A stretch of DNA of 60,887 nt from Clostridia bacterium. GTDB taxonomy: Bacteria; Bacillota; Clostridia; Oscillospirales; Acutalibacteraceae. Location: contig JAFSEP010000048.1 of assembly GCA_017435665.1 (NCBI GenBank), positions 1-60,887 on the forward strand, written 5' to 3'. Shown piece after piece: positions 1,751 to 49,587 of the stretch; position 1 is the stretch's first letter; each line of letters opens with the position of its first letter. The notes beneath the pieces were generated by a model. That model ran no database searches and had not been told where the DNA came from. It saw only the letters and a list, made by a program, of their open reading frames with translations. The position numbers and the translations under genes were made by a program.

Positions 1751-1775
1751 TACTATATATTATATATGCAATTTT

Positions 1776-2348
1776 CTATCTGCTTACCTTGCACCTTTTC
1801 GCAAACTCAGGGAAAATCTTCCCGATTATGAAACACAGGGCATACCCCATAACACCGCCAAGGGTATTCAGTATAACATCATCAATATCCGTTCCCCTGT
1901 CCTGAGGCAGCTGACACACCTCCACAAAAACCGAAAACGCCATAGTAATCAGCACGCACTTCAGGAAAGAGGGCTTGTTATAAAGCAACCCCACGAAAAA
2001 TGCTATGGGCAAGAACATAATAAGGTTGCCTATGAAGTTGACAAGGAAAAAGGATCCGCCGAGATAAAAGGCAATCTTTATTTCCTTGAAAGGCACAAGA
2101 TTCAATCGCTCCGTGTGTATTTCGATATTCTCCAAAGAAAATCCCGAAAGGTCCGGTATGATTGTCTGAGAAACAAGTGCCGCCATAAACATTATGAAAA
2201 GCACAGAAACAATCTCGTGTTCCGTAGTTGTGACTATTCCTTTTTCTTTAAACGTCTTTTTCCTGAAAAATCTCCACATCACCGCAAAGGGAAGTATCCC
2301 GAACGCATACGGTGCCATGGCAACCAGATAATCAACAACTGCTTCCAT
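1776..2348 (-). CDS. VanZ-like family membrane protein
   Basis: A 190-residue membrane protein with about five hydrophobic segments. VanZ-family signatures are clear: 'NLVPF' (about residue 86), 'NLIMFLPIAF', and the conserved 'SVFVEVCQL' followed by 'RGTDIDDVILNTLGG'. VanZ gives low-level teicoplanin resistance in enterococci, but most genomic homologues have no known role. Start chosen at the ATG at 2348, which has a purine-rich GAGATGG upstream; an ATG nine codons earlier lacks a ribosome site. It is transcribed alone and has its own terminator. Confidence 0.85.
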   Translation of the reverse strand: MEAVVDYLVAMAPYAFGILPFAVMWRFFRKKTFKEKGIVTTTEHEIVSVLFIMFMAALVSQTIIPDLSGFSLENIEIHTERLNLVPFKEIKIAFYLGGSFFLVNFIGNLIMFLPIAFFVGLLYNKPSFLKCVLITMAFSVFVEVCQLPQDRGTDIDDVILNTLGGVMGYALCFIIGKIFPEFAKRCKVSR

Positions 2349-2396
2349 AAGACCATCTCTTTCACGGCAACACACCGCTATACTATATATAATATA

Positions 2397-3332
2397 TTAT
2401 AATTTGCAAACTCTGTACGCAAAGTCAACAACGCCCTTGGCAACTGTCTCGAAGGCCTGACTTTCGTTGAGAATTTCATGTCTGCAGCCGGGGTAAAGTG
2501 TGAGAGTAACATCTTTGACTCCGTTTGCTCTCAGACCGTCGGCAACTTCCTTTACACCTTTTCCGTATGCGCCTACCGGGTCTTCCTCACCTGCAATCAC
2601 ATAAACAGGCAGGTCTTTATTAAAGCCGTGGTACCACTGCTCTGAGGATACATAGTCAAGTATGCACATAAGGTCCTTTGAACCTGTTGCTGTAAACAGG
2701 AAACCGCAATCCTCGTCAGCTATGTACTTGTCAACGATATCATTGTCACGTGTAAGCCAGTCAAAGTTTGTTCTCTTTTCAAATCTTTCGTTATATGTGC
2801 CGAAGGACATCTTGTCTATAAGCTTACTGCGGTGATGACTGCCGAAAATCTTGGCAATAAGTTTTGCAAGAACTATACCTACACTTGCAAGAGGGTTCTT
2901 GCCTGAGGTTCCGCATACAACCACACCGTCAATTTCGTTTGCATATTTGAATGCGTATGCTCTTGCCACAAAGGAGCCCATACTGTGACCGAAGAAGATG
3001 TAGGGCTTTCCGGGATTTTCATTCTTTGCGATTTTTGTCAGCTCGTGACAATCCTCAACAAAGTGCTTCCAGCCGTCCTTTTCACCGAAATAACCAAGCT
3101 CATCTCTTGACTTGATGCTCTTACCGTGACCGATATGGTCATTGATGTAAACAGCTATCCCGTTTGCTGTGAGATATTCTGCAAAAGCCTCATAGCGTTC
3201 AAGATGCTCTGCCATACCGTGAGCAATCTGGAGAACAATTTTTACATCTTCTTTGTTCTCAGGGAGATAGCTTGCGGCGTGGATGTCAGCAAGAGCTGAC
3301 GTTGACGGGAAAAAGAATTCGTTTTTAATCAT
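2397..3332 (-). CDS. Alpha/beta hydrolase, monoacylglycerol lipase-like
   Basis: A 311-residue serine hydrolase of the lysophospholipase/monoglyceride-lipase type (Hydrolase_4). The oxyanion region 'IAHGMAEHLERYE' (about 37-49) and the nucleophile elbow 'GHSMGS' (Ser117) are visible; the rest of the triad is probably Asp251 in 'GEEDPVG' and His285 in 'GCRHEIL'. There is no signal peptide, so it should be cytoplasmic and act on a small ester or acylglycerol. AAAAGGAGG precedes the ATG. It lies 48 bp upstream of the VanZ gene on the same strand and may be co-transcribed with it. Confidence 0.88.
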   Translation of the reverse strand: MIKNEFFFPSTSALADIHAASYLPENKEDVKIVLQIAHGMAEHLERYEAFAEYLTANGIAVYINDHIGHGKSIKSRDELGYFGEKDGWKHFVEDCHELTKIAKNENPGKPYIFFGHSMGSFVARAYAFKYANEIDGVVVCGTSGKNPLASVGIVLAKLIAKIFGSHHRSKLIDKMSFGTYNERFEKRTNFDWLTRDNDIVDKYIADEDCGFLFTATGSKDLMCILDYVSSEQWYHGFNKDLPVYVIAGEEDPVGAYGKGVKEVADGLRANGVKDVTLTLYPGCRHEILNESQAFETVAKGVVDFAYRVCKL

Positions 3333-19833: not shown

Positions 19834-20006
19834 CAATGATATCCGTTCCTTCCGGAACGGGTGATATATCTTCGATATGATATCGCTCTGCGAGCGATGA
19901 TATATGCCTTCGGCATATGAAGGAACGGATATTATATCATACTTGCGTAGCAAGTATATCATGCGGCGCAAGCCGTATATCATATCGCACAGGCGATACA
20001 TCATTG
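19834..20006. repeat. Hairpin-array repeat, copy 1
   Basis: A 173-bp element bounded by CAATGAT and ATCATTG. It holds seven short hairpins (loops mostly 3-5 nt). The left half is punctuated by TGATAT and the right half by its complement ATATCA. ATATCCGTTCC (19839-19849) can pair locally with GGAACGG or distally with GGAACGGATAT (19922-19932). Copy 2 is at 30001-30174, also downstream of tRNA genes. The terminal TTG forms the -35 of the next promoter. Both strands read the same general pattern, so orientation is assigned only from context. Confidence 0.8.
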
Positions 20007-30000: not shown

Positions 30001-30174
30001 CAATGATATCCGTTCCTGTCGGAACGTGTGATATACCCTACAGGTATGATATCTGCTTCGCAGATGATATACGCTATGCGTATAAAGGAACGGATATTAC
30101 ATCATATTTTTACGGAGTAGAAATATATCATACGGTGCTGCCGTATATCATATCGTGCAAGCGATATATCATTG
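30001..30174. repeat. Hairpin-array repeat, copy 2
   Basis: A 174-bp homologue of 19834-20006 with the same ends (CAATGATAT, ATATCATTG), the same seven-hairpin plan and the same TGATAT/ATATCA separators. Hairpin stems differ in sequence from copy 1 but stay complementary, for example ATCTGC/GCAGAT against ATCGCTC/GAGCGAT. ATATCCGTTCC (30006-30016) again has two possible partners. Confidence 0.8.
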
Positions 30175-35246: not shown

Positions 35247-35281
35247 TCCTCAATGTAAAATATGAAGGGAGACATTTGTTT

Positions 35282-37120
35282 ATGATCTGGTTCTGCGCAA
35301 TACTTGTGGGTGCACTTGTCAGCGTAGCAGATATTTTTCTGCTTGCTGAGAATAAAAGTGCAAAGACCTGCATACACGCTGTTATCCGTGATGTTCTCAC
35401 GGTAAATCTCAGCGCATTTTTCATTATGAAAAATGTTTTTAAAATGGATAATCTGTTCACGGGAGCAACACACGGCCCCCACTATGAGTCAAAATACACC
35501 CTCCTTGCCCTGGCAGTCGGCATAGTTTTTCTCTGCCTTATCGGCCTTGTTAACAAAAGTCTTCAGCTTGAACGTGTTACACCAAAGCACAGAAAGGGCG
35601 CTATGGCATTAAAGGTTGTATCTGCGGTGTTTACGGCTCTGGGTTGTGCCGCTTATACAGGAACTCTCTGGGGAAAGGAAGCCTTCGGCGACCTGACTCC
35701 CGACCAGATTTTGATCAACCTCAATTCACCCACCGAGGGAACGGATACCGGCGTATACATATCCCTCTTTGAAGGTCCCGTCCTCACTACTGCACTGGTT
35801 ACGGCATTGTTCTGCATTGTGGTTTTCTCAAACCTCAGCCTTGTTTATAAGAAAAAGGAACATTCACTCAAGGTTATTCCCGCATTGGCAGTCAGAATTA
35901 TCAGCTTCGCTCTTGCCGTTGCCATACTTGTCGGCGGCTGCGCTTACGGTATTGAAAAATTCCAGCTTCTGACTCTTTATGATGCATATATGTCAGCCTC
36001 ATCTTACATAGAGGACAATTTTGCTGACCCGAAAAAGGTTGAGCTCACCTTCCCTGAAAAGAAGCGTAACCTTATTTTCATTTATCTTGAATCTATGGAA
36101 AACACCTTCTTCTCAAAGGAGCTTGGCGGATACTTTGAAGAAAATCTTATGCCCGATATGGCAAAGCTTATGAAGGAGGGCATCAGCTTCTCTCATAAGG
36201 AAAAGGGCTTCGGCGGTATGGCAAAAACCCCCGGCTCAGGCTGGTCTGTGGCAGGTATGGTCAATATGTTCACGGGACTTCCCATGAAGGTACCCGTAAA
36301 CGGCAATTCTTACGGTCAGCCGGACAACTTCCTTCCCGGAGCAACGGCACTGGGTGATATCCTCGAGGAACAGGGCTATGAGCAGTCAATTATGTTCGGC
36401 GCAGAAGCAGCCTTCGGCGGTCTGAACTTCTTTTATCAGTCTCACGGAAATTACAATATCCTCGACTGGCTTGCAGTCAAGGAAAAGGGCTGGCTTCCTA
36501 AAAATTATAAGCAGTTCTGGGGCTTCGAGGACGACAAGCTTTACGAGTTTGCAAAGAGGGAAATCACAAGACTTCACAAAACAGGCAAGCCCTTCAACTT
36601 TGTAATGGAAACAGCAGACACACACGCTCCCGAAGGATATCTGAGCAAGCACGTTGAGGATAAATTCTGGACAAGGTATGCAAACGTTGTTCATTACAGT
36701 CAGGGCGAAGCAGTAAAATTCATCCGTTGGATTCAGAAGCAGCCCTTCTATAAAAACACAACCGTAATTGTCGTCGGTGACCATCTGAGTATGGCAAGTG
36801 AATTCTTCAAGGATGTTACCGACTATGAGCGAACAATATTCAACCTCATTCTCAACGCTCCCGAAAAAGTCACAGACATTCCCAAGGAACACACGTTTAA
36901 CAGAAAATGGGCACCTTTCGATATGTTCCCCACCACCCTTGCAAGTCTCGGTGTTGAAATCGAAGGCAACCGTCTGGGCATAGGCACAAATATGTTCTCA
37001 GGTGAACAGACGCTTCTGGAAAGAGACGGCCCGGAAACAGTTGAAGCCGAGCTGAAAAACCGCAGTAACTTCTATAACAACAATATCCTCGTTGACTGGT
37101 CAACGGTAGGTAAAAACTGA
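35282..37120 (+). CDS. LTA synthase family phosphoglycerol transferase
   Basis: A 612-residue membrane protein of the LtaS/sulfatase fold. About five N-terminal helices precede a large extracellular catalytic domain (from about 250). The catalytic Thr lies in 'GGMAKTPGSGWSVAG' (about residue 316), a metal Glu in 'FIYLESMENT' (about 270), and Asp-His in 'VVGDHLSM'; 'ETADTHAPEGY' is another family block. Such enzymes transfer glycerol phosphate to lipoteichoic acid or to glycans. Start: ATG at 35282 with AAGGGAGA upstream; a TTG two codons earlier is an alternative. Confidence 0.88.
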   Translation: MIWFCAILVGALVSVADIFLLAENKSAKTCIHAVIRDVLTVNLSAFFIMKNVFKMDNLFTGATHGPHYESKYTLLALAVGIVFLCLIGLVNKSLQLERVTPKHRKGAMALKVVSAVFTALGCAAYTGTLWGKEAFGDLTPDQILINLNSPTEGTDTGVYISLFEGPVLTTALVTALFCIVVFSNLSLVYKKKEHSLKVIPALAVRIISFALAVAILVGGCAYGIEKFQLLTLYDAYMSASSYIEDNFADPKKVELTFPEKKRNLIFIYLESMENTFFSKELGGYFEENLMPDMAKLMKEGISFSHKEKGFGGMAKTPGSGWSVAGMVNMFTGLPMKVPVNGNSYGQPDNFLPGATALGDILEEQGYEQSIMFGAEAAFGGLNFFYQSHGNYNILDWLAVKEKGWLPKNYKQFWGFEDDKLYEFAKREITRLHKTGKPFNFVMETADTHAPEGYLSKHVEDKFWTRYANVVHYSQGEAVKFIRWIQKQPFYKNTTVIVVGDHLSMASEFFKDVTDYERTIFNLILNAPEKVTDIPKEHTFNRKWAPFDMFPTTLASLGVEIEGNRLGIGTNMFSGEQTLLERDGPETVEAELKNRSNFYNNNILVDWSTVGKN

Positions 37121-37131
37121 TAACAACACAA

Positions 37132-37192
37132 AACCCGTAATCACTCTTACCGGAATTATATCTCGGCAAAAGCGATTGCGGGTTCTCTTTTA
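37132..37192 (+). terminator. Terminator after the LtaS-like gene
   Basis: AACCCGTAATC (37132-37142) pairs with GATTGCGGGTT (37174-37184), followed by a T-rich run. A second stem, GGCTCTGTGCC/GGCATAGAGCC (37201-37229), lies just after it and may serve the opposite gene. Confidence 0.65.
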
Positions 37193-37236
37193 TTCTTTTC
37201 GGCTCTGTGCCAACAACAGGCATAGAGCCAAGTCTT

Positions 37237-38325
37237 TTATTTAAGTATGAACTCAAGTAATACGGGATTATGGTCGGAATAAACAAAGTCGGTCTGAATG
37301 TTTTCAACACGGCTTACTTCAATATTGTCAGTCACAAGGAAGCCGTCCACTATAAAGGTGGGATTACCCTTTTCATAAGGGATATCACAGTTTCTGCAGG
37401 TGGGAACAAGCTCGTCTCCCGTATAGTCTGTGCACCTAATGATGCATTCGGGCAGGAACTCCTCAGGGAATGGCTGTGCCCAACCGAAATCAACCGTCTG
37501 TCCTCCGTTGAGCTTCTGTGTGGAATCGCCCGTAAAATCGTGGTTAAAATCACCGCCGCAAAGGCAGTAATTACCCTTATCGTATTCACCCTTGATGTCT
37601 TCAAAAAGCATATTCATCTGTGCAGCTCTGATCTCGTCACTTCCGCCGTAGGCTGAAAGGTGCACGTTGTAAATCACCAGCTCCTTACCGTTTTCGGCAG
37701 GCACTCTTGATACGGAATAACATCTGTCAAGGTCGAGGAACTTACTGAAGCTCTCGGAAATGGGAAGACTTCTTCTGAGTGAAGATAAAATATTGAATCT
37801 GCTCAGAGTAAGTATACCGCTGTTTGAAGCACCGTGGGGCTGTGTAAACGGATAAGCAAGAAATGCGGAATGATAGTTGACCGCAAAAGCACCGCTGTAA
37901 TCAGCAAAGCGGGTTTCGAGCATTTCCCTCTGATTTATGTGGTAGCTTCTTGTGGAATCGAAGTCAACCTCCTGGAAAAGTATAAAGTCGGGATTATAGG
38001 ACTCAGCCTTATCGGCAGCGGCATTTATGCATTTCTTCACGCTTTCCTCACTCTCAGCCCAGGACTGTGTTCCTCCGTCCATAAAGAAGGTGAAATCCTG
38101 TGTGTATGCGCCGAAGCCCAGGTTCTGTATAATTGCCGTATAGCTTTTCTCTGTCTGAACACTTTCCGCAGCTCCCGTTGAAGACGGTGTTATCTCTTGT
38201 CTGTCCTCAATACGTGAATAGCTCAGCAGCACATAGCCCGCATAGGCTCCCACGACGAGCACAAAAGCAAGAACTATACTCAGCACAGCTTTCAGGATTT
38301 TTCGGGTTTTCTTTTTTTCTTTCAT
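37237..38325 (-). CDS. Membrane-anchored endonuclease/exonuclease/phosphatase-fold protein
   Basis: A 362-residue protein with an N-terminal anchor (about 10-34) and an extracellular EEP domain. Metal and catalytic blocks are 'IIQNLGFG', 'FILFQEVD' (metal Glu), 'IYNVHLSAYG' (His), 'LCGGDFNHD' (Asp-Asn) and 'VYSDHNPVLLE' (final Asp-His). Exported EEP proteins may cleave nucleic acids, sphingomyelin or phosphoinositides; the substrate is unknown. ATG at 38325 has GAAGGAG upstream. It follows the SGNH hydrolase by 25 bp, in one operon. Confidence 0.85.
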   Translation of the reverse strand: MKEKKKTRKILKAVLSIVLAFVLVVGAYAGYVLLSYSRIEDRQEITPSSTGAAESVQTEKSYTAIIQNLGFGAYTQDFTFFMDGGTQSWAESEESVKKCINAAADKAESYNPDFILFQEVDFDSTRSYHINQREMLETRFADYSGAFAVNYHSAFLAYPFTQPHGASNSGILTLSRFNILSSLRRSLPISESFSKFLDLDRCYSVSRVPAENGKELVIYNVHLSAYGGSDEIRAAQMNMLFEDIKGEYDKGNYCLCGGDFNHDFTGDSTQKLNGGQTVDFGWAQPFPEEFLPECIIRCTDYTGDELVPTCRNCDIPYEKGNPTFIVDGFLVTDNIEVSRVENIQTDFVYSDHNPVLLEFILK

Positions 38326-38350
38326 AATACTTTCTCCTTCGGTATCCGTG

Positions 38351-38992
38351 TTATGCAAATTCTATAAGATTTTCTATGGCATCGACCATCACCTTATGTC
38401 CGAGATTTGTAGGATGAATTCCGTCAATAGCAAGCTTTTTCGGCTCGATTGTTTTCTGTGCATCGTAAAAAACCTGCTGCAAATCAAGAACAGCGGCATT
38501 GTTTTCAAGAGCAATTTCCTTCAGCTCCGCACGGAATTCGTCAAGTATTTTATGGAAGGGTAGCTTTTCCTCTACGGAATCAATCATAAAGGGCATCAGA
38601 TACAGCACCTGCGTATCGGGAAGCTCCGTTCTTATTCTTCTGTATATTTCACGTATGTGCGGCTCCATAGGTCTCACAAGCGGCGGATACCGATCCGGAA
38701 CATAATTCTCCCATGCATCGTTGACACCTATAAGCATAATAATGACATCAGGCTTCAGACTGATACAATCTTCCGTGAGTCTGTCATAAACGTGATACGT
38801 TCTGTTACTGGCTATGCCTCTGATTTCCACATCAATATCGGGGCTATACTTTTTCAGGCGTTTTTTCAGCTGCAGAGCATATACATTTCTGCCCTTTATG
38901 CTTGACATCTTTTTAAAGTTAAATTTAACGTCAGTAATGCTGTCTCCCAGGAACAGCACCCTGCTGTCTTTTTTTATTGTAATTTTTTCCAT
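38351..38992 (-). CDS. SGNH/GDSL hydrolase
   Basis: A 213-residue esterase or deacetylase. Block I is 'VLFLGDSITD' (Ser about 18), block III 'MLIGVNDAWEN' (Asn), and block V 'AIDGIHPTNLGHKVM' (Asp and His). No signal peptide is present, so it is likely cytoplasmic. It is first in a two-gene operon with the exported EEP-fold protein, driven by a promoter at 39054-39082. Confidence 0.87.
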   Translation of the reverse strand: MEKITIKKDSRVLFLGDSITDVKFNFKKMSSIKGRNVYALQLKKRLKKYSPDIDVEIRGIASNRTYHVYDRLTEDCISLKPDVIIMLIGVNDAWENYVPDRYPPLVRPMEPHIREIYRRIRTELPDTQVLYLMPFMIDSVEEKLPFHKILDEFRAELKEIALENNAAVLDLQQVFYDAQKTIEPKKLAIDGIHPTNLGHKVMVDAIENLIEFA

Positions 38993-39283: not shown

Positions 39284-40522
39284 TTATCCTTCCGGATCGA
39301 AAACTAAAAAGACGTACATAAGATAATAAAGAAAAACTACTGCTTTGGGGATTTTTTTTATTAAAGCAGTTAAAATACCGGATATGTTCTCTCTTTCGTA
39401 ATAAACGACATAAAAAAATGAAGCAATTAAAAGTGAATATGCGTGTCCTATAAATCTTACCACATCTGACGAAAAAATGATACAAATAGCAATAGACATA
39501 AAAAACATTGCAGACATACAGAACAACACAAATTTTTTTAATCCGCTAATACCATGGCACTTTATAAACTTATTGAAGCAATAAATGACCACAACAACTG
39601 TAGGCGAAGAAACAAGAAAAGGCAATACACCCTTTTCAAATGCTGTCATTTTCAAAGTCAGCAGGAACCGCTGAAAAACAAAATATAAAGCACGGTATAT
39701 CGGAGACTCTATACCATTTATGCCCGCATAATCAACAGTATCGTAATAGGGTTCAGAATACAAACCTGTCGCATAATACCTAGATACACCATCATAGCCT
39801 CTGTTGTTAAGGATTTGTGTAAATTCTTCAAAAGTATATACTAGATTTCCCTGCTCATATATAACAAAATATCCACTTAGAAGTATTGACAATACAGTCG
39901 TTATTGCAGCAACAACACAAAGATAATATTTCTCAGATTTTTCTTGTATAACCGTTGACTTGTAAATTGTTAGGAGTATTATAAACGGAATATAAACAAA
40001 TATTCCTCCAAAATTCACCATAATAACCATAAGTGATGATGGTATGATCAACAAATACAACCTTCTGTCTGAAAGAAAAACTACAGATAATATTGTGAAA
40101 TATATCCAGTAAGAATCCAATGATCCCATTTTATAAACACACATTGGGAACACAGATATTCCTGTCAGAAAAAGTATCGACATACAGAAAAAATTTTTTC
40201 TGTCATCATATCCAACCCTTAAAATCAGTTTTTCCAACATAACAAACACAACAAGAACAAATGCAATAAAGATAAATGTGTTATACGAAAAAACAGCCAC
40301 TCTGCTTGTGTTGTCAAAAAGAAAATTATATATTGCTCCCGGAAGCAGTTTAGAACAGAATCCCATAGAAAAATCCACAAGGAAATACGGATAGCAAACA
40401 TCAGAAAGTCTCAAGGGATTAAGTGAGGCAGTCACAACATAGTTGTGCGCCAAGAAAAGCAGTGCAAAGAAGATTACATACGAATGCTTATTCTTTTCCG
40501 TTGTTCGCATACGGTTAGCCAC
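39284..40522 (-). CDS. Polytopic membrane protein of the radical-SAM locus
   Basis: A 412-residue protein with about ten to eleven hydrophobic helices and one larger extramembrane loop (about 225-275, 'NNRGYDGVSRYYATGLYSEP'). I do not recognise a family. Its size and topology fit GT-C-type glycosyltransferases, O-antigen-polymerase-like proteins or the 'GtrX' position in gtr clusters, but no catalytic motif is certain. It ends the six-gene operon that starts at 48914, 21 bp after the CX4CX2C radical-SAM gene. Its base composition is notably AT-rich. Confidence 0.7.
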   Translation of the reverse strand: MANRMRTTEKNKHSYVIFFALLFLAHNYVVTASLNPLRLSDVCYPYFLVDFSMGFCSKLLPGAIYNFLFDNTSRVAVFSYNTFIFIAFVLVVFVMLEKLILRVGYDDRKNFFCMSILFLTGISVFPMCVYKMGSLDSYWIYFTILSVVFLSDRRLYLLIIPSSLMVIMVNFGGIFVYIPFIILLTIYKSTVIQEKSEKYYLCVVAAITTVLSILLSGYFVIYEQGNLVYTFEEFTQILNNRGYDGVSRYYATGLYSEPYYDTVDYAGINGIESPIYRALYFVFQRFLLTLKMTAFEKGVLPFLVSSPTVVVVIYCFNKFIKCHGISGLKKFVLFCMSAMFFMSIAICIIFSSDVVRFIGHAYSLLIASFFYVVYYERENISGILTALIKKIPKAVVFLYYLMYVFLVFDPEG

Positions 40523-40543
40523 ACCTTTCTTCTTTCAGATATT

Positions 40544-42367
40544 TTAAAAATTATGCTTTCTGTATTTCAATCGATAATCTCGCACCCATTGTGCACCATA
40601 CTTTGAAGTATATAACAAAATATGATCTGTATCTGTAAATTCAATTGACCAAAGACTATCTGCCGTCTTTTTTAAAAAATCTAATTGAAAATCCATTCTT
40701 TCTTTCTTTATGTTACGTGTTTCTTTCCCGTTCATCACATAATTACAGGATATATGAAAATCACCATTATCTTTTATATTTTCTAAACCTGCGCGATCAA
40801 CCTCGTTAATCATAATGGCATTCTTTTTCAGTGCGAAATTAGAGGGTGTACAACTATCAACAAGATTGCGATTTCGTATAACATTTTTGGTCGCCTCTGT
40901 TTCCTCTTTAGTTTCGCCGGGATACCCGAGAAGAAAAGTGCAATGATTCCACAATCCCACTTCTTTTGCATTCTCAAGAAGAGTCTTACGGTACGAACAA
41001 TCTATGCCTTTGTTTAAAATTTTCATTACTCTTTCTGATTCCGCCTCGTATCCCCAACAGAAGAAGCGTCCACCGGCATTATACAGGTTCTGCAAAACCT
41101 CTTTTGTAAATGATTTTTCCATACGAGCAAAAGAATAGAAATAAATTTCTATTCCTCTGTTAATAATCTCTGTTGCTAACTGATCATAATACTTAGGTGG
41201 GACTGCCTCATCCACAAAAATAAAGTGTTTGCAGCCGTATTTGTTTACCAGACTCTGTATCTCATCTGCCGCAGTATTCACGGATTTTATATCGAAACAT
41301 TGCTGTCCTGTATAAAAATCACAAAAAGTACATTTTGCCCAATAACAGCTTTTTGAAAGTTGCATCGGAATTACAGTATCTGCCGAAAAATACAAATCAA
41401 AGTCATAACCGTCGAAGCACGGTGGCGCAAGTGCATCCATATCAAGCAGAGGTGCTGACTCGGTTTCTATAATTTCACCTTCTGAATTCTTAAAAATCAG
41501 AGAATATGCGTTTTCCAAAGACACACCGCTTTGCAAAGTTTCAACAAGCCTTACCACTGAAATTTCTCCATCACCAAGTTGTACCGAATCGCAAAACACA
41601 TCAAAAAATTCGGGCATGTTTTTTATTGCCTCACGTATTTTGAAAATGTAGTTGCCGCCAAGGGTGATGTGTGCATTGGTTCTCTCTTTGAGATACTTGG
41701 CAAGTGTCAATCCCGGAACTATCTGGCTAAGGTCAAAAATACTTATCCCTATAACGGAAAATTCCATAAAATCCTCTGGCTGTATTTTTTGATCAAAATA
41801 CTCAACGAACATATTCAAATCAGGAGAATTCACTTGTAACTTTATGTCGTCATAATTATATGTATATACCGGATTTGCAATAAAATTTTCAAGCATTATC
41901 TTACTTGGCATATACGGCAATGAGATTATTCGCAATGCATCCCTCATTACATCCTTTGCCCAAAACAACTGCTCAGGATCATAAAAACGGTCTTTATCTT
42001 TAGTAACAGAAACAGCATCTTCGATATTCTCGGCCACCTCTTCAACTTTAATTCCGCTTTCAAGGAATTCTTGATATGCCATTAAACGAAGAATTTTTGT
42101 TTGCAATTTGCGAGAATAGGTATCAAAGTATTCTTCGCAATAACCCCCGGTGGAAAACTCCGGAAGAAAATCGTTGTAAAATTTTTCAGCCTTGTTAGCC
42201 GCACTAATGACATTTTCTTTATTTAAAATATCGTTAAAAAACTCTATATTCAGATCTCTGGTTTTAGCATCGAACCCTTTGGCCTTGAGTTGACCTACGA
42301 GTTGGGCTCCAGAAAGATAGGGGTTCATAGGATACCATTGCGGTGGTATAACAAAAAGTGTTTTCAT
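40544..42367 (-). CDS. B12-binding-type radical SAM protein with CX4CX2C motif
   Basis: A 607-residue protein. The N-terminus ('LFVIPPQWYPMNPYLSGAQL') and the Rossmann-like 'HITLGGNYIFKIREAI' (about 233-248) indicate a cobalamin-binding-type domain. The radical-SAM core starts at 'CYWAKCTFC' (Cys341, Cys346, Cys349). This gives CX4CX2C, one residue longer than the canonical CX3CX2C. Later blocks 'FFCWGYEAESERVMKILNKG' and 'FLLGYPGETKEETEAT' are typical of class B radical-SAM enzymes. It is not a close paralogue of the three upstream radical-SAM proteins. Four bases after the GT2 gene. Confidence 0.85.
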   Translation of the reverse strand: MKTLFVIPPQWYPMNPYLSGAQLVGQLKAKGFDAKTRDLNIEFFNDILNKENVISAANKAEKFYNDFLPEFSTGGYCEEYFDTYSRKLQTKILRLMAYQEFLESGIKVEEVAENIEDAVSVTKDKDRFYDPEQLFWAKDVMRDALRIISLPYMPSKIMLENFIANPVYTYNYDDIKLQVNSPDLNMFVEYFDQKIQPEDFMEFSVIGISIFDLSQIVPGLTLAKYLKERTNAHITLGGNYIFKIREAIKNMPEFFDVFCDSVQLGDGEISVVRLVETLQSGVSLENAYSLIFKNSEGEIIETESAPLLDMDALAPPCFDGYDFDLYFSADTVIPMQLSKSCYWAKCTFCDFYTGQQCFDIKSVNTAADEIQSLVNKYGCKHFIFVDEAVPPKYYDQLATEIINRGIEIYFYSFARMEKSFTKEVLQNLYNAGGRFFCWGYEAESERVMKILNKGIDCSYRKTLLENAKEVGLWNHCTFLLGYPGETKEETEATKNVIRNRNLVDSCTPSNFALKKNAIMINEVDRAGLENIKDNGDFHISCNYVMNGKETRNIKKERMDFQLDFLKKTADSLWSIEFTDTDHILLYTSKYGAQWVRDYRLKYRKHNF

Positions 42368-42371
42368 ACTT

Positions 42372-43118
42372 TCATTCCTTTCCTGTTAACAGTATATCTT
42401 CTTTGGACATAAATCTGATATGCAGTGCTACCCTCAAATACGAGAAGGTCTGCTTTGTTGAATTACTTGACTTGCCTTCTTTTCTGGAATAACAGTTTGT
42501 CGGTGTTTCCGTAAACTTATAGCCAAGTCTGATGGGCTTCAGAACCATTTCGATCAAAATCGGAAAACCGGTCTCTTCGAATCTGATGGATTTATACAGT
42601 TCTGTGGGAGCAATCTGAACCGGAATTGTAAAATCGGTAAGCTTTCTCATATATAGTACAGCCAAAAATTTCTGTGCACAAAAATTCAGAATCTTTCTAA
42701 ATCTCCCGTATCCGTAAAACCTACACCCCTTCATCCAACGAGACAAGGAGTGGATTGCTTCGGGCTCAAGTTTGGCTTTCTCTATAAGTTGCGGAATTAC
42801 AGTTAAATCCAAAGCACCGTCAGAAGCGACCAGCATACAATGAGAGCCCCGAGAAATATCAATGGCATCATTTATACATCCCATAAACGGTCTTTTTTGC
42901 TGAATTGCGACTATAGGGACTTTATCCTGTTCAGATTCAAGTTCTCTAATAACTTGCATTGTTTCAGGAGTTGCTCTGTCGGCATAGCATATTATTATTT
43001 CGCACAAGTCTTCCGCATCACAAAAATCAAGGATCGTTTTTACCGTTTCTCTCAGCGAGTCCGTTTCTGTAACGGCTCCCATCATAATGCTTAACTTCTC
43101 AAACTTCAACATTTCCAC
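42372..43118 (-). CDS. Family 2 glycosyltransferase
   Basis: A 248-residue GT-A fold enzyme of the dolichol-/polyprenol-phosphate sugar synthase type. It opens 'LSIMMGAVTETDSLRETVKT'; 'IIICYADRATPETM' corresponds to the nucleotide-binding strand and 'MLVASDGALDLTVIPQLIEK' to the acceptor/DxD region (here SDGALD). No C-terminal membrane helices are present. With a divergent GtrA flippase and a polytopic protein in the same locus it could make a polyprenyl-phosphate sugar. Confidence 0.82.
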   Translation of the reverse strand: MEMLKFEKLSIMMGAVTETDSLRETVKTILDFCDAEDLCEIIICYADRATPETMQVIRELESEQDKVPIVAIQQKRPFMGCINDAIDISRGSHCMLVASDGALDLTVIPQLIEKAKLEPEAIHSLSRWMKGCRFYGYGRFRKILNFCAQKFLAVLYMRKLTDFTIPVQIAPTELYKSIRFEETGFPILIEMVLKPIRLGYKFTETPTNCYSRKEGKSSNSTKQTFSYLRVALHIRFMSKEDILLTGKE

Positions 43119-43127
43119 TTTTAACGA

Positions 43128-45050
43128 TTACTCCGTTTCTAAGTATGTTATTTCATCTCTCGGATTCACCATAAGAGTAGCGCTGTAACGCTTTCCGAAC
43201 CAAACAAACTCTCTTGCATAATCTGCCCATGAAGAAACTGTTTTTTGTGCCCTTATTCTTAGAACGTTTTTAACTTGCTTCAGCTCTGCCTTTTCTCCTT
43301 CTTCAATCGCCTTAAAGTACGGATAAAAATTATACTCAGATCTTACACAAACCTCTTGTGTATCGATTAATCGGACAAGGCTTGTCTGGTATTTATAAAG
43401 CTCTTCAAACAGCTTATCTTCAATATCAAATTTTTTCAGGAAGGGCTTTATTTCTTCCTTGAAAACTTCAAAATGGTAAGCAAGCTCCAAAAAAGCTCCT
43501 TCCTCAAAATACCATCCGGTTGTTCCGAAAACATCCTTCTGATATGTCCAGTCGGCAGTTTCGACATCGAGCTTACGCTTATACAAATCAAGGAAAAGTG
43601 AATGTATATAGCCCCGACATTCATTATAAATATAATCAAACAGCATACTGTAAAAAACAAAATACGGCACACTTTTTTCTTTGTTAAGATAAACAGCAAA
43701 ATATCTTGTAACACCCAGATGATGGAAGGTTTGCAAAACAACCGAAAACATATAGGCTTTTACCCAGTCTTCCTTGGGCATAGTTTTTGTTCCGGTAATA
43801 ATATCCATATATTCCTGCACTCCGCTGTAGTCAGGATTGTAATGTATACCGAAACTGGGTATTCTGGACACCTCTATACCATATTTTTCTCTGTATTCAG
43901 GCTCACCCATCGGAGAATTGTCATATACCTGACACTCATATACAGTCATGGAATTGCTCTGACCGAATTCAAGCAAATCACATATTCCTTTACAGAAGCT
44001 TTCATAAGTCTCTCCCGGCAATCCCAGAATCAGCCCTGTATATGTGGGAATGCCTGCTTCACTGTAACGTGAATACAAGTCAGAAAAGTGCTCCAGAGTA
44101 AGATTTCTTCTGCCGATATTTTCCAATGTCTGCGAGTCAAGCGTCTGGTAAGCCAGTGTGACACCCTTATCAATGTGATTGCTGTTAAGAATATATCCTG
44201 CTTCAAACACGGTGTCATCACTATCCTTGGCATAACAGGGCTTGAAAACCTCGGGATACCCATATTTTTTGTTCTGCTCGACCACATATCGGGCTATGTC
44301 TACGTCTCTTTCAAGAATACCGAAGTTTGCATCAGCACAATAACAATACCTGATTTTATTTTTCGCAATCCACTCAATTTCCGATTTGATTTTACTAATC
44401 GGAAACTGCCTTATCCTGTGTGTAAAGCACCACTCGCAATAAGAGCAGGTGTATGGACAACCCCTGTTTGTCTCCAATGTAGCGTGAAATTCAACGTCGG
44501 GATATTCCCTGAAGAAGTGCTCAAATATTCCCTCCGTGTACGGAGAAGGGTATTCAGATATATCGGCAGGGTGATATTTATGGGTTGTCACATTTCCGTT
44601 CCCTGTCCGATATGACAAATTGGGAACAAGAGATAAATCCGTCCCGTCGGCCAATGCTTTCAGAAATGCAGCAACGGCCTCTTCACCTTCGTTGTGCACA
44701 AGATAGTCAACAAAATCATATTTATCAAGAAAAGAAGAATCACCCGGCACACTATGTCCGCCAAAAACAATCTTAACATCAGGATAAGCCTTTTTGAGTT
44801 CGGTAGCCAGCTTCTTGTTATACTCCAGATTCCAGACAAAATTAGTAAAACCGACCAGATACGGATTGTCGATGCGTTTTAAAATATCGGGGATTTTTTC
44901 CCTCATACCGATAACATCTGCAATTTCATAGTTTTTAAGAATATCTGCGTCCTTCTTTAAAAAGGCGGCTATACAACCTGCAGAATACGGCAAAAAGCAA
45001 GGAGAGGAATAAGAGAGCGCAACCTGAATCAAATAAATCTTTTTCTTCAT
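43128..45050 (-). CDS. B12-binding-domain radical SAM protein, paralogue A
   Basis: A 640-residue class B radical-SAM protein. The N-terminal ~130 residues form a cobalamin-binding-type Rossmann domain ('PDVKIVFGGHSVPGD', 'DYLVHNEGEEAV'); a DxHxxG His ligand is not evident. The [4Fe-4S] motif is Cys198, Cys202, Cys205 in 'RGCPYTCSYCEWC'. 'YCYCADANFGILERDVDIAR' and 'LILGLPGETYESF' continue the barrel. A ~200-residue C-terminal domain shared with paralogues B and C follows ('YFAVYLNKE', 'YLETE' end). The closest neighbours in sequence are the two genes directly upstream. Substrate unknown; methylation or another SAM-radical reaction is possible. Confidence 0.88.
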   Translation of the reverse strand: MKKKIYLIQVALSYSSPCFLPYSAGCIAAFLKKDADILKNYEIADVIGMREKIPDILKRIDNPYLVGFTNFVWNLEYNKKLATELKKAYPDVKIVFGGHSVPGDSSFLDKYDFVDYLVHNEGEEAVAAFLKALADGTDLSLVPNLSYRTGNGNVTTHKYHPADISEYPSPYTEGIFEHFFREYPDVEFHATLETNRGCPYTCSYCEWCFTHRIRQFPISKIKSEIEWIAKNKIRYCYCADANFGILERDVDIARYVVEQNKKYGYPEVFKPCYAKDSDDTVFEAGYILNSNHIDKGVTLAYQTLDSQTLENIGRRNLTLEHFSDLYSRYSEAGIPTYTGLILGLPGETYESFCKGICDLLEFGQSNSMTVYECQVYDNSPMGEPEYREKYGIEVSRIPSFGIHYNPDYSGVQEYMDIITGTKTMPKEDWVKAYMFSVVLQTFHHLGVTRYFAVYLNKEKSVPYFVFYSMLFDYIYNECRGYIHSLFLDLYKRKLDVETADWTYQKDVFGTTGWYFEEGAFLELAYHFEVFKEEIKPFLKKFDIEDKLFEELYKYQTSLVRLIDTQEVCVRSEYNFYPYFKAIEEGEKAELKQVKNVLRIRAQKTVSSWADYAREFVWFGKRYSATLMVNPRDEITYLETE

Positions 45051-45063
45051 ATTATTCCCCCCC

Positions 45064-46989
45064 TTATTTTTCAGATATATCGTCCTTGTAACTTGCCCAC
45101 CCTATTCTTTCGTACCAAATAACATATTTCGCAAAATCAGGCCAATTGTTATGAAGCTTGCTGTCTCTCAAAACGAGTGTATGCTCCCTACGTACCAAGG
45201 GATGCCATTTATTTACATAGATGTCCGTTACATAGCTATGCACATCATAGTTTAACGAAATCTCTTTTACACTCTCACAAGGTCTTCTTATCACTGCCTT
45301 CTGATATTCAAGCAAATCATCGAAAACAGCTTCGCTTATTTTATAATTCCTCAGATAAGGAATAAATTCTTCATAAACCCTATCGAACTGAGCTAGAAAA
45401 TTAAGTACCGCATACTCATGTTCTTCCCAAAGAACTTCTCCGGTGTAAGAAAACATCATTCTTTCATTATTTCCACCCCGAGACAGTTTTTCAACTTTTT
45501 CCTTAATGTCGAAATATATGCCGGAAACAAATAAATTGGGGTTATCTTCAAAATAATCAATTATCTTATCGTAAAAGGTCTCAAACGGTATTCCGTATTC
45601 ATGGAACAGGTACAATGCAAAAACTCGCAGAAATCCGTTACCGTGCAACGCCTTGACAATATGGCTGAACACAGAGGCTCTTACCCACATATCACGGCTC
45701 ATAGTATTTGTCTCAACAATTATACGATTATACTCCGCTACATCGAATGAAGCATTGTTAAAATGTGGTCTCAAAATTTCTACACGAACCGTCTTAATCC
45801 CGTGCTTCTCGACAAAATCCTTCTGCCCCATAACGGCATTTGGAAGCAGCATACAGTTATAAACCTCAAATACAAAGTGCTGGCCTATTTCAAAAAGCTT
45901 TCCTATACCCTGAATAAAGCTTTCATAGGTTTCTCCGGGCAAACCAAGTATAAGCTCTGAGTATGTTTTCATACCCTCTTTGTTATATGCTTCAAGTAAA
46001 TTTTTATAAAAATCTAAAGAAGAATTTGTTCTTCCTATGTTTTTAAGCACAACAGGCGATAAACTCTGGAATGACAAAGTAGCACCCACTCTGTCAAATT
46101 CGCATTCTTTGAATTTTTTGACAATAGCAAAAACATTCTCGAACTTGTTTTTTGCATAGTTCATTCGCATTCTTTCCGGATATCCTGTTTCTTTCTTTGC
46201 TTTAACAAGTTCATCAGCAATTTCCAAATCTCGATCAAACAAGCCAAAATTAGCATCGGCTCCCCAAACAAAAGCGATTTTATGCTCACACATCCAGCGT
46301 ATTTCTGCTTTTATTCTGTCAAAGGGAAACAGTCTGGTTTTTGCTTTAAGTAATCCCCAGTCACAGTAAGCACACTGATTGGGGCAACCTCGACTTGTTT
46401 CAAGTATTGCATTAAATGTTATTTCGGGATGTGAGGCGACAATGTTGTCAAACCAACCTCCCAGATATGGGGACGGATAGTCAAGAGTGGTCTGCAGAAC
46501 GGTTGCTGTTCTTATAAAATTTCCTGCCTCTGTTCTGAATGAAACATTATTAACTCTCGCAAAATCTCTACCGAGAGCATATGTCTCCAACAGCTCCCTG
46601 ATAGTATCCTCGCCTTCACCGTGACAAAGAACATCTATAAACGGACATTCTTCAAGCAAATCAAAGCTATCGGGAACATCGTGTCCACCAAATACAATAA
46701 GACATTCGGGGTATTTTTTCTTCACAGCTTCAGCAAGACACTTGTTATATTCAGTGCTCCAACAATAACTGGAAAATCCTACAAACGACGGATTTTCCAT
46801 TCGTTCTGCAACCTCTTCTATATTTTCGCGCAAAAATATAAATTCTTTGAAAGCGAAATGTGATTTTACCACATCACTTTGAAAAGCTGAAGCCACTAAA
46901 ATACCTGCAGTATATGGCAAATAGGCGTTCTGTGCTTCTGAGGATGCAGAAACATCCACCTGAACAAAATATACATTTTTCTTCTTCAT
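45064..46989 (-). CDS. B12-binding-domain radical SAM protein, paralogue B
   Basis: A 641-residue paralogue of the flanking radical-SAM proteins. The cobalamin-type domain shows 'CLIVFGGHDVPDSFDLLEEC' and 'VLCHGEGEDTIREL'. The cluster motif is Cys202, Cys206, Cys209 in 'SRGCPNQCAYCDWG', followed by 'FVWGADANFGLFDRDLEIAD', 'NIGRTNSSLDFYKNLLEAY' and 'LILGLPGETYESFIQG'. The C-terminal extension parallels that of A and C. It overlaps paralogue C's stop by 4 bp and lies 13 bp before A, so the three are co-translated as a set. Confidence 0.88.
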   Translation of the reverse strand: MKKKNVYFVQVDVSASSEAQNAYLPYTAGILVASAFQSDVVKSHFAFKEFIFLRENIEEVAERMENPSFVGFSSYCWSTEYNKCLAEAVKKKYPECLIVFGGHDVPDSFDLLEECPFIDVLCHGEGEDTIRELLETYALGRDFARVNNVSFRTEAGNFIRTATVLQTTLDYPSPYLGGWFDNIVASHPEITFNAILETSRGCPNQCAYCDWGLLKAKTRLFPFDRIKAEIRWMCEHKIAFVWGADANFGLFDRDLEIADELVKAKKETGYPERMRMNYAKNKFENVFAIVKKFKECEFDRVGATLSFQSLSPVVLKNIGRTNSSLDFYKNLLEAYNKEGMKTYSELILGLPGETYESFIQGIGKLFEIGQHFVFEVYNCMLLPNAVMGQKDFVEKHGIKTVRVEILRPHFNNASFDVAEYNRIIVETNTMSRDMWVRASVFSHIVKALHGNGFLRVFALYLFHEYGIPFETFYDKIIDYFEDNPNLFVSGIYFDIKEKVEKLSRGGNNERMMFSYTGEVLWEEHEYAVLNFLAQFDRVYEEFIPYLRNYKISEAVFDDLLEYQKAVIRRPCESVKEISLNYDVHSYVTDIYVNKWHPLVRREHTLVLRDSKLHNNWPDFAKYVIWYERIGWASYKDDISEK

Positions 46990-48914
46990 TTTCCACTCAC
47001 CTCTTTTTCCACTTGTACTTCTTTTATATAAGTGCTTCTACCATTTTTTCTTCCGTACCATGCAATAACTTTTGAAAACTCTTCCCAATTTTCAAACATT
47101 TCACCGTTGGCAGAAACGGTTTCCTCTGAGCATTCAAGCTCCTGCTTTTTCCCTTCTATAATACCAACAAAATACTCAGTAAAATTATATCGAACATTAA
47201 ATCTGCAATTCTGTTCATACGGATGTTTCATAATCCTTCGCTGAAATTTCATCATTTCTGCAAAAACTTCATAATCAATGTTGAAATTTCTAAGAAAAGG
47301 TATGATTTCACTGTAAAAGTCATCCAACTCATAAACAATACAGAGATAAGCATACTCCTCAAAGGGCCACTGTACCTTACCGAATCTTTCGTCGCAACAG
47401 CTGAGCGTCCCTTTTTCCTGAAGAACATCATCAAGATAAGAATCAATTCTGTCAAACACCCTTCCTCCTACGGTATCGGGGTTTGAGAGAAAAAACTCAA
47501 GAAGGGATGTGTAGAAAGCCTTATACGAGCAAATGCCCTCATTATAGAGATAAAGGGCAAAAAACTGCAGAAGCCCCATATGATGAAATGCCTGGACGGT
47601 ATAAGAAAACAAATTCATCTTCTTCCACTCGTCGGTGTTCATAGAATAGGTTGAGGTCACAACCTGAGACCACTCCTGAATATCATCGTCGTCATCAGGC
47701 TCACGATGCGGTTGATTCAAAGGAATGCGTGAAGTTTTTATCCCATATTTTTCAACATAGTCCTCCTGACCCATTATAGAGCAAGGCAACCATTCGCAGT
47801 TGTGTATATATATGGAGTTGTGCTGACCGAGAACAAGGAGTCGGTCTATACCGTCAACTATACTCTCGTAGGTTTCTCCGGGGAGTCCGAGAATAAGCTC
47901 GGTATATGTAGATACCCCTGCCTCATTATAAAGAGCCATTAACTCAGAATAGTAATCGATGCTGATATTCTCTCTGCATATATTTTTCAGAACAGCCTCG
48001 CTCATTGACTGAAAAGAAAGAGTAATCCCTCTGTTCATATCCGCTCTCTCAAGGTTCATTCCTATATCAAAAACACGTTTACTGCTGTTTTTTGCATAAG
48101 ATGTCTGAAATCTAACGGGATATCCTGTCTTTTTCTTTGCTTTAACAACTTTGTCGGCTATTTCCTCATCACGGGGAAACATACCGAAATTGGAATCTGC
48201 CGAACCTAATACACAGATCTTATTTTTCATAACCCAGTCAATTTCACCAAAAATGCGCTCAATGGGAAACTTTCGGATTTTCGATTTCATATTACTCCAG
48301 TCACAGTAAGCGCAGGAATTGGGACATCCTCTTGAGGTTTCGATAAGAGCCATAAATTCCGTATCGGGATTTTCTTCGATGATCTTATCAAAATAACCCT
48401 CGAGGTACGGCGACGGGAAATTGCATTCAGATGAAATTTCCTCAGGATTTGTAATAATGCCTTTTTCGGTTCTCACAGATATACCCGGTATTTTTTCAAT
48501 GTTCTCAAGCCCTGTTATACCTCGCATAAGCTTGCGGAAAATTATTTCGCCCTCACCGTGAAGAAGATAATCAATATACGGACATTCTTCAAGCATACCC
48601 CCTCCGGGAGCCACGTGGTGTCCGCCGAAAATTATTACGCATTCGGGATACTTTTCCTTTATCAGCCTTGCCAATGTCTTGTTGTAATTGCAGTTCCATA
48701 TATACGTGGAGAATGCTGCAACGGCAGGCTCCTCAATCTGAGCCATCACTTTATCCGGACTTTCTCTGAGGAAAAAAATTCTTTCAAGCTCAAAGCTCTC
48801 CGCCACATCCACGTCAGCGAAAGCATATGCCGCAAGCTGTCCTGCAGTATAGGGTATGTGGGCAGATTTGCCGTAAGGATAATTCACCTGAAAGAAATAA
48901 AGCTTCTTTTTCAT
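46986..48914 (-). CDS. B12-binding-domain radical SAM protein, paralogue C
   Basis: A 642-residue paralogue and first gene of the operon. The cobalamin-type domain has 'CVIIFGGHHVAPGGGMLEEC' and 'LLHGEGEIIFR'. The cluster motif is Cys197, Cys201, Cys204 in 'SRGCPNSCAYCDWS', followed by 'VLGSADSNFGMFPRDEEIAD' and 'LILGLPGETYESIVDG'. ATG at 48914 has AGGAGG upstream; the longer frame begins at the transcription start and is not used. The strong promoter at 48957-48985 drives the operon. The triplication suggests related but distinct reactions on one product. Confidence 0.88.
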   Translation of the reverse strand: MKKKLYFFQVNYPYGKSAHIPYTAGQLAAYAFADVDVAESFELERIFFLRESPDKVMAQIEEPAVAAFSTYIWNCNYNKTLARLIKEKYPECVIIFGGHHVAPGGGMLEECPYIDYLLHGEGEIIFRKLMRGITGLENIEKIPGISVRTEKGIITNPEEISSECNFPSPYLEGYFDKIIEENPDTEFMALIETSRGCPNSCAYCDWSNMKSKIRKFPIERIFGEIDWVMKNKICVLGSADSNFGMFPRDEEIADKVVKAKKKTGYPVRFQTSYAKNSSKRVFDIGMNLERADMNRGITLSFQSMSEAVLKNICRENISIDYYSELMALYNEAGVSTYTELILGLPGETYESIVDGIDRLLVLGQHNSIYIHNCEWLPCSIMGQEDYVEKYGIKTSRIPLNQPHREPDDDDDIQEWSQVVTSTYSMNTDEWKKMNLFSYTVQAFHHMGLLQFFALYLYNEGICSYKAFYTSLLEFFLSNPDTVGGRVFDRIDSYLDDVLQEKGTLSCCDERFGKVQWPFEEYAYLCIVYELDDFYSEIIPFLRNFNIDYEVFAEMMKFQRRIMKHPYEQNCRFNVRYNFTEYFVGIIEGKKQELECSEETVSANGEMFENWEEFSKVIAWYGRKNGRSTYIKEVQVEKEVSGK

Positions 48915-48956
48915 CAGCCCACACCTCCTGAAAATAATCATACTAACTGACACTAC

Positions 48957-48985
48957 ATTATAACATTTCGCATATACTAAGTCAA
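48957..48985 (-). promoter_or_regulatory. Promoter of the radical-SAM operon
   Basis: Minus-strand TTGACT (48980-48985), 17-bp spacer, TATAAT (48957-48962), a strong vegetative promoter with a short leader of about 35 nt. Confidence 0.8.
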
Positions 48986-49016
48986 CCGAAAATCCATTAA
49001 GAACTTTTTAATCGGG

Positions 49017-49045
49017 TTGAAAATCTTATTTTTTCGTGTTAATAT
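49017..49045 (+). promoter_or_regulatory. Promoter of the GtrA gene
   Basis: TTGAAA (49017-49022), 17-bp spacer, TAATAT (49040-49045), back to back with the radical-SAM promoter. Confidence 0.55.
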
Positions 49046-49110
49046 ACTCATCAGACAGATGTCTGCTGCCGGTCCGGAAGCTGATTAACCAATATCGGAG
49101 AAATATAAAT

Positions 49111-49587
49111 ATGATTAAACGCATCATCAGTCTGTTAAAAAAGAATACGGAGTTCATTCTCTACGCCTTTTTCGGAGTAATTACTGCCCTTATAAGCTTT
49201 TCGGTGTTTTACCTCTGCAATATGCTGTTCGGCAACGACTTTTATCTTCTGAACAATACAGTTGCTTGGTTTTGTGCCGTCACCTTTGCCTGCTTCACAA
49301 ACAAATTTTTTGTATTCAAATCCGAAAGCCTCGAGCCAAAGGTTATAATAAGGGAGATTGTTGTTTTTTATTCATCAAGAATTATGACCCTCGCCATCGA
49401 GGAAATCGGTCTGTGGGTTCTTGTTGAGGGTCTGAATATGAAGCAGCTTTGCTTTGTCATATTTACATTTGAAATCACGGGACATCTGATTTCAAAGGGT
49501 ATAGTGGGAATAATATCTGTGACCATCAACTATCTGTTCAGCAAATTTATAACATTTGCAAAGAAAAGCAAAAATACAGACTCCTGA
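49111..49587 (+). CDS. GtrA-family membrane protein (putative polyprenyl-phosphate sugar flippase)
   Basis: A 158-residue protein with four membrane helices typical of GtrA ('FILYAFFGVITALISFSVFY' to 'VTINYLFSKFITFAKK'). 'TFACFTNKFFVFKSE' is the conserved GtrA block, with the Asn-Lys pair. GtrA members are thought to flip undecaprenyl-phosphate-linked sugars across the membrane. It is divergent from the radical-SAM/GT2 operon, which supplies a GT2 enzyme and polytopic protein, the usual partners. ATG at 49111 has GGAG upstream; an earlier in-frame start overlaps the promoter. Confidence 0.85.
   Translation: MIKRIISLLKKNTEFILYAFFGVITALISFSVFYLCNMLFGNDFYLLNNTVAWFCAVTFACFTNKFFVFKSESLEPKVIIREIVVFYSSRIMTLAIEEIGLWVLVEGLNMKQLCFVIFTFEITGHLISKGIVGIISVTINYLFSKFITFAKKSKNTDS

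Follow-up and report, generated by a model that had tools for sequence, protein, structure and literature searches.

Here, I describe an operon of four radical S-adenosylmethionine (SAM) enzyme genes in a 60,887-nucleotide stretch of DNA from a Clostridia bacterium of the Acutalibacteraceae (assembly GCA_017435665.1, contig JAFSEP010000048.1). The whole stretch, hereafter the window, is the entire contig C37 of a 2.23-Mb draft genome that is 98.9% complete. Together with a second locus on contig C55 of the same genome, the operon may encode a pathway for a branched, C-methylated, heptose-derived sugar carried on polyprenyl phosphate to the cell surface, a reading to which a probability of about 0.5 is given. 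The operon (39284-48926, minus strand) is compact, with intergenic spacings of -4, 13, 9, 4 and 21 bp, and comprises three TokK/CysS-like B12 radical-SAM genes, a gene for a family 2 glycosyltransferase (GT2), a fourth radical-SAM gene and a gene for a polytopic membrane protein; judging from the gene content of C55, it is probably half of a two-locus system. A first-pass annotation of the window had taken these genes and a divergent GtrA gene for a system in which a surface sugar or lipid, handled through a polyprenyl-phosphate carrier, receives successive C-methylations or comparable radical changes. All seven genes were found where it had placed them, and the measured spacings agree with the 4-bp overlap and the 13-bp gap it reported for the paralogue trio; its interpretation stood as to the methyltransferase class, the type of GT2, the recurrence of the partners and the lack of a conserved precursor peptide in the gaps examined, and failed as to GtrA. 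The layout is not a matter of chance, because the homology to solved enzymes covers most of their length and the same gene order is found in other genomes.

The Pfam Radical_SAM domain is detected in 4/4 radical-SAM proteins of the operon. The three paralogues lie at 46986-48926 (group K0, see below), 45064-46989 (K3) and 43128-45050 (K1), all on the minus strand; two of them pass the Pfam B12-binding cut-off of 32.1 bits (32.7 and 36.6), the third being just under it (30.4). A family profile (A3, built from 79 of the 131 paralogues that remained once close ones were taken out of 188) matched, among solved structures, TokK over positions 17-586 of 641 (E 9.1e-165) and CysS over positions 21-493 (E 1.3e-97), the homology to TokK extending through the B12 part, the radical-SAM part and a large share of the C-terminal part; far below came further matches, OxsB and AprD4 (putative apramycin oxidoreductase 4) among them. 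Each of the three cysteines of the CX3CX2C cluster motif is invariant in 194/194 aligned paralogues, and the tryptophans aligned with TokK W76 and W215 are kept in 192/194 and 191/194, respectively (TokK numbering was mapped through the alignment of the middle paralogue, K3, which alone matches TokK at E 2.4e-99). As described in passages of PMC9692996, PMC12846815 and PMC13331322, W76 sits under the cobalt, while W215, two residues past the last cluster cysteine, lies between SAM and cobalamin; Trp75 of CysS likewise lies under the cobalt (in part of PMC12846815). Homology and conserved residues together place the window paralogues, by prediction, in the B12-dependent radical methylase type, as the first-pass annotation had supposed; sequential methylation is known for enzymes of this type. 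The best named family, NCBIfam KedN5 (NF033712), is matched at 243, 247 and 207 bits, under its cut-off of 700.

In a FastTree tree of 194 paralogues, a clade counted as an orthologous group if it was as large as possible without representing any locus twice and had support of at least 0.9. The five largest (K0-K4) hold 35, 32, 26, 25 and 25 members with support of 0.92-1.0, identity being 46-58% inside the groups and 37-43% between them. The window carries K0, K3 and K1, and contig C55 carries K2 and K4; all five are found together at loci L044 and L069, and they recur, often in tandem, in Oscillospiraceae-like metagenome-assembled genomes. A recent duplication as the origin of the window trio is ruled out by a mutual identity of 34-42%, each member having closer orthologues in other genera. 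By the measure of this tree the paralogues diverged long ago and form distinct groups, as would suit enzymes with different carbons or sugars as targets. An extreme of the expansion is a 76-kb contig (G102:C83; loci L155, L156, L053 and L054) with 7 paralogues and 10 genes of another radical-SAM type, R485, thus 17 radical-SAM genes, along with 10 polytopic proteins and 2 GT2s of the DPMS-type family found in the window. K2 has a nucleotide-sugar gene within 4 kb in 15/26 cases, as against 34/117 for K0, K1, K3 and K4 (Fisher 0.01, the loci not being independent), which hints at a special link of this group to nucleotide-sugar genes.

The partners of the arrays recur with them. Among 150 genomes of the family, including the window's own (array family at E 1e-100, GT2 at E 1e-20, the polytopic family, POLY, at E 1e-15; best 8 array candidates per genome scored), 15 carry the array family; GT2 is present in 14/15 of these and in 1/135 of the others (Fisher 1.2e-17), POLY in 13/15 and 1/135 (Fisher 7.9e-16), values to be read in the light of the fact that related genomes are not independent and that the profiles were built from array loci. 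The recurrence that the first-pass annotation had proposed to check is thus borne out for the GT2 and the polytopic protein. One array-bearing genome lacks GT2 (G013) and two lack POLY (G048 and G128); the exceptions in the other direction are G045, with a weak GT2 match (3.4e-22) beside a membrane protein that is GT-C-like by eye, and G111, with POLY. In G003, whose best array-family match reaches only 1.4e-20, neither GT2 nor POLY has a match. Phylum-wide, 1/398 genomes, the window's own, had the family at E 1e-60 (best three candidates per genome scored). A scan of contigs yielded at least 74 loci, 55 of them of Clostridia type (Clostridia, Clostridiales, Clostridiaceae, Oscillospiraceae, Ruminococcaceae, Bacillota) and 19 in other phyla; many of the Clostridia-type loci among the matches listed carry isolate names that refer to ruminant gut samples.

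Neighbourhoods were counted at a profile E of 1e-6 in 73 Clostridia loci (77 minus the duplicates L070, L076, L101 and L113). GT2 is found in 44 of them, a polytopic protein in 27, the family of the fourth radical-SAM protein (FOUR) in 19, R485 in 19, the EPI family in 18, HddA-like genes in 17, HddC-like in 15 and GmhA-like in 1; any of six partner families is present in 59/73. The arrays are thus recurrently linked with GT2 and the polytopic protein and, at some of the loci, with nucleotide-sugar genes. Twenty-one hand-picked control stretches (20 of about 20 kb, plus window positions 1-33000) gave no match for GT2, the polytopic protein, EPI, HddA-like, FOUR or R485 and one for HddC-like, besides weak matches to the array family in two stretches (42.5 and 29.4 bits) and to the reductase in one. 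At least two full paralogues are present in 48/73 Clostridia loci and one in 24/73. Homologues occurring singly in unrelated contexts had been named as the outcome that would speak against a multi-enzyme system: Clostridia loci are mostly multi-copy, but the 24 are single, and in other phyla the loci with a recognised copy have one copy only (17/17).

The GT2 (42372-43118, minus strand) matches PF00535 above cut-off (28.7 bits) and phrog_841 (GtrB/DPMS-like) at 31.9 bits. Its family profile (A5, 38 of 41 members) aligns nearly end to end, over positions 5-233 of 247, with the dolichol-phosphate mannose synthase of P. furiosus (PfDPMS, 5mlz; E 6.4e-21), a match that upholds the polyprenyl-phosphate type of GT2 claimed in the first-pass annotation and assigns the protein, at the level of sequence, to the DPMS class. 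Genes of this family lie within 100 bp of a radical-SAM gene in 44/44 cases, on the same strand in 41.

The polytopic protein (39284-40522, minus strand) belongs to an unnamed family with 9 transmembrane-like segments by hydropathy (alignment A2, 33 members) and is proposed to be a transferase of polyprenyl-phosphate sugars. The window member falls in no Pfam family, and the family had no match below E 0.1 among solved structures; when the 33 members were scanned, one matched PMT_2 at 7e-4 and one GtrII at 0.022, the window member matching neither. Nor is POLY related to the adjacent DDxxY-type membrane protein of L054 (probability 0.6%). GT2s of PgfS/ArnC type lie near POLY genes at L047, L155, L157 and L163, and a decaprenyl-phosphate phosphoribosyltransferase-like gene lies next to POLY at L164 (positions 936-3072 of that locus, on G111:C280; this genome has no match to the array family at 1e-100); such neighbours point to polyprenyl-phosphate sugars.

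The fourth radical-SAM protein (40544-42367, minus strand) belongs to a separate family, with a CX4CX2C motif in place of the CX3CX2C of the paralogues. Radical_SAM is found in 28/28 FOUR members and Pfam B12-binding in 12/28, the window's protein having no B12-binding match in Pfam; profile-profile comparison with the paralogue family gives a match that begins in the B12-type part and continues into the radical-SAM part, which suggests a remote B12-type domain, and among solved structures there is a weak match to OxsB (E 5.6e-7). Two FOUR copies directly flank the GT2 in six loci (L044, L059, L062, L065, L098 and L114). R485 is a third radical-SAM family, with B12-binding and Radical_SAM domains in the single member scanned (L044).

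What points to a sugar is found mostly outside the window. Besides its two paralogues, contig C55 (L007) encodes another member of the polytopic family, an HddA-like kinase, a fusion protein of nucleotidyltransferase and GmhB-type phosphatase, a cupin and two short-chain dehydrogenase/reductase (SDR) proteins of epimerase/reductase type; it also has a fructosamine-kinase/aminoglycoside phosphotransferase (APH)-family gene and a geranylgeranyl-reductase-like gene. The GmhB domain scores 151.5 bits with TIGR00213 (cut-off 149.6), other GmhB models remaining under cut-off (NF006506, 165.6 of 178; NF050049, 113.9 of 250); the kinase has the HddA equivalog as its best NCBIfam match, at 166 of 600 bits, and a GmhA-like isomerase gene, below its cut-off, lies on contig C41 of the same genome. 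In the sister species G138 (L038), the row K0-K3-K1-GT2-FOUR immediately follows a gene for an HddA-profile kinase of the same strand. Between the two targets offered by the first-pass annotation, a sugar or a lipid, these heptose-type nucleotide-sugar genes, which could not be seen in the window, make the sugar the likelier one. As a separate observation, a protein of 768-821 residues with the HddA profile replaces the short kinase at L045, L052 and L102; the one at L045, the sole one scanned, is fucokinase/guanylyltransferase-like, and L045 has five paralogues and L052 four.

Among the 19 loci of other phyla, nucleotide-sugar-type genes are found in 11 (EPI in 9, HddA-like in 7, HddC-like in 6, GmhA-like in 1) and none in 8. 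L126 has HddA-like kinase, GDP-mannose-dehydratase-like and GmhA-like proteins; at L118 an HddA-profile kinase is accompanied by a GDP-fucose-synthase-like protein and an SDR. Where scored, all of these are under equivalog cut-offs. At L118, L126, L130, L121 and L124 (Planctomycetota, Proteobacteria and others), single TokK-like genes lie no more than about 10 kb from genes for HddA-profile kinases and SDRs; NCBIfam concurs, under cut-off, for HddA at L126, L130 and L121 and for GDP-mannose dehydratase at L126.

From these elements a pathway can be proposed. A heptose-type nucleotide sugar would be made by the GmhA-like isomerase, the HddA-like kinase, the GmhB-nucleotidyltransferase fusion and the SDR and cupin enzymes, whose genes are at the second locus, that of the isomerase being on a third contig. 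Five TokK/CysS-type methyltransferases (three of the window, two of C55) and the fourth-family enzyme would act on different carbons of the sugar, each adding a methyl or building a larger alkyl group, either on the nucleotide sugar or after its transfer to the lipid; the DPMS-type GT2 would load the sugar onto polyprenyl phosphate; GtrA or another flippase would flip it, and the polytopic protein would then transfer it to an acceptor outside. I infer a sugar as the methylated substrate (from neighbouring genes only), as well as the order of the steps, what the polytopic protein does, the product and the joint working of both loci.

Several observations weigh against this pathway. The window itself has no nucleotide-sugar-type gene; among the Clostridia loci such a gene is present in only 28/73, and 14/73 have none of the six partner families, stretches often ending at contig ends. 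Nucleotide-sugar genes rarely lie within 100 bp of radical-SAM genes (HddA-like 1/13, HddC-like 6/15, EPI 4/26), POLY does so in 14/33, and most EPI matches at the distant loci reflect weak, general similarity to SDRs. The scores of HddA-like proteins (129-166 bits) do not reach the equivalog cut-off of 600, nor do those of GmhA-like proteins (93-152) reach theirs of 209, by which the exact sugar is not fixed. POLY has no confident relation to GT-C enzymes in sequence and profile comparisons. Finally, a DPMS-type GT2 is expected to have a DXD motif, which is not intact here: the last Asp (D100) is invariant and the first one is replaced.

The alternative with the best claim, though still an unlikely one, is a secreted, glycosylated small molecule comparable to moenomycin or the aminoglycosides, in place of a structural glycan of the surface, with the polytopic proteins serving assembly or export. 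The fructosamine-kinase/APH superfamily includes aminoglycoside phosphotransferases, and the L007 member (PF03881 75 bits, PF01636 43 bits) lies beside the nucleotidyltransferase. Sporadic spread (the 15/150 family genomes) and variable gene content would suit such a product, as would the antibiotic pathways to which TokK and CysS, the closest solved enzymes, belong in the passages cited above, and the B12 radical-SAM methylation by GenD1, GenK and MoeK5 in the gentamicin and moenomycin pathways (in part of PMC8992657); yet no nonribosomal peptide synthetase or polyketide synthase gene was recognised among the neighbours viewed, in a non-exhaustive scan done partly by eye, and polyprenyl-phosphate-type GT2 profile matches accompany the arrays in 44/73 loci. 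It is rather improbable that methylation targets the lipid, with polyprenyl phosphate or some other isoprenoid being C-methylated or changed in another way before the GT2 glycosylates it. This would explain why the DPMS-type GT2 is more tightly linked to the arrays than any nucleotide-sugar gene, and geranylgeranyl-reductase-like proteins at L007 and L038 and a CrtI-like protein at L049 go along with it; but the reductase-like gene is found in 2/73 loci, and the distant single-copy homologues, which sit with HddA-, HddC- or SDR-type genes in 11/19 loci, have a GT2-profile match in 1/19, a weak one (38 bits).

Enzymes that act on the sugar by epimerisation, dehydration or ring contraction, rather than methyl transfer, would account for the presence of OxsB and AprD4 among the weaker profile matches, and other B12 radical-SAM types carry out such reactions (in part of PMC13331322); this is improbable, for the methylases TokK and CysS match far better and over more length, and the tryptophans at the W76 and W215 positions are nearly always kept. 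Very improbable is the maturation of a ribosomally synthesized and post-translationally modified peptide, which the first-pass annotation had already thought unlikely. The top NCBIfam match of the window's fourth radical-SAM protein is rSAM_ocin_1 (TIGR03975), at 109 bits, but the cut-off of 281.85 is not reached, gaps within the operon do not exceed 21 bp, and the GT2 and nucleotide-sugar partners do not fit a peptide; moreover, 161 short open reading frames from 41 gaps of at least 90 bp between family genes of related arrays contained no set of similar sequences shared by more than 3 loci, and hence no conserved precursor peptide in the gaps examined.

Returning to the lipid-carried C-methylated sugar, several described enzymes and pathways come close to it. 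TokK, the sequential C-methyltransferase of carbapenem C6 (PDB 7kdx), shares most-of-length homology, the CX3CX2C motif, the Trp under the cobalt and the Trp between SAM and cobalamin, but acts on a carbapenam in an antibiotic context, whereas the window has a row of paralogues with a GT2, a polytopic protein and, partly, sugar genes. The same enzyme type is represented by CysS (cystobactamid iterative methylase, PDB 9n1b), with its Trp75 counterpart (in part of PMC12846815); unlike the arrays, it targets a methoxy group in cystobactamid biosynthesis and has no glycan context. In the gtrA-gtrB-gtrC modification of O-antigen, GtrA and the GtrB GT2 work with a polytopic serotype-specific transferase, GtrC; the window has a GtrA, a GtrB/DPMS-like GT2 and a polytopic protein, but its GtrA is divergent and not conserved with the arrays, POLY has no confident GtrC-type match, and four radical-SAM genes are present. 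The GDP-heptose pathway (GmhA/HddA/GmhB/HddC) finds homologues in the kinase and the phosphatase-nucleotidyltransferase fusion of L007 and in the isomerase-like gene of C41; it differs in that most scores here are under equivalog cut-offs and that the proposed product would be further C-methylated. MoeK5, GenK and GenD1 methylate carbons of sugar rings by radical chemistry, the target in the case of moenomycin being a phosphoglycolipid, and each pathway has one or two such enzymes; they are likened here by reaction and pathway. The B12 radical-SAM methylases of the moenomycin and gentamicin pathways (in part of PMC8992657) are a precedent for the main reading.

The first-pass annotation knew of no described system of this make-up, and none was found in the full-text literature searched, most subscription papers and preprints lying outside it. 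B12 radical methylases of the TokK/CysS type are mostly known singly or in pairs, from antibiotic pathways; with an apparent link to glycans and five old paralogue groups, the present system would mean that ordinary gut bacteria have branched-carbon sugars as a surface trait, and many new enzymes for selective C-H methylation would follow. The unnamed membrane-protein family is likewise on offer, its partner genes suggesting the use of polyprenyl-phosphate sugars. Tentatively, and with odds well short of even, it might be thought that at least five B12 radical methylases and two further radical-SAM families write strain-specific C-methyl or bulkier branches, in a combinatorial manner, on lipid-linked heptose-derived surface glycans of gut Clostridia; if so, the surface would vary in a chemically inert way, to the disadvantage of host, phage or glycosidases.

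The divergent GtrA-type gene (49036-49587, plus strand) encodes a genuine GtrA (PF04138, 58.6 bits, above cut-off), a possible flippase, and was considered as a core component. Contrary to the layout assumed in the first-pass annotation, it is not a conserved partner of the arrays: in 14 other array-bearing genomes, 0/35 GtrA places lie within 10 kb of array places among the matches listed, and a single-sequence profile found GtrA in 1/73 Clostridia loci. Upstream of the first operon gene, a promoter-like site, TTGACT-17-TATAAT (48957-48985, minus strand), matches the consensus at 11/12 positions and has an extended -10; it rests on this match, such sites being no commoner across the region than in shuffles (27 vs a mean of 32.1). 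The open reading frame of that gene runs over 46986-48953 from a GTG, and an in-frame ATG at 48914, where the family alignment starts, is the likely start. G+C content is about 44% in the flank and drops to 34-40% over the cluster. Just downstream of the operon (35276-38992) are genes for a sulfatase-domain membrane protein (lipoteichoic-acid-synthase-like by eye), an endonuclease/exonuclease/phosphatase-family protein and a GDSL hydrolase. No cobalamin riboswitch is among the five Rfam matches at gathering score in the window; two Gut-1 RNAs (RF01706) are found at 19834-19908 and 30001-30075, both on the plus strand and each just downstream of a tRNA (tRNA-Val and tRNA-Glu, respectively).

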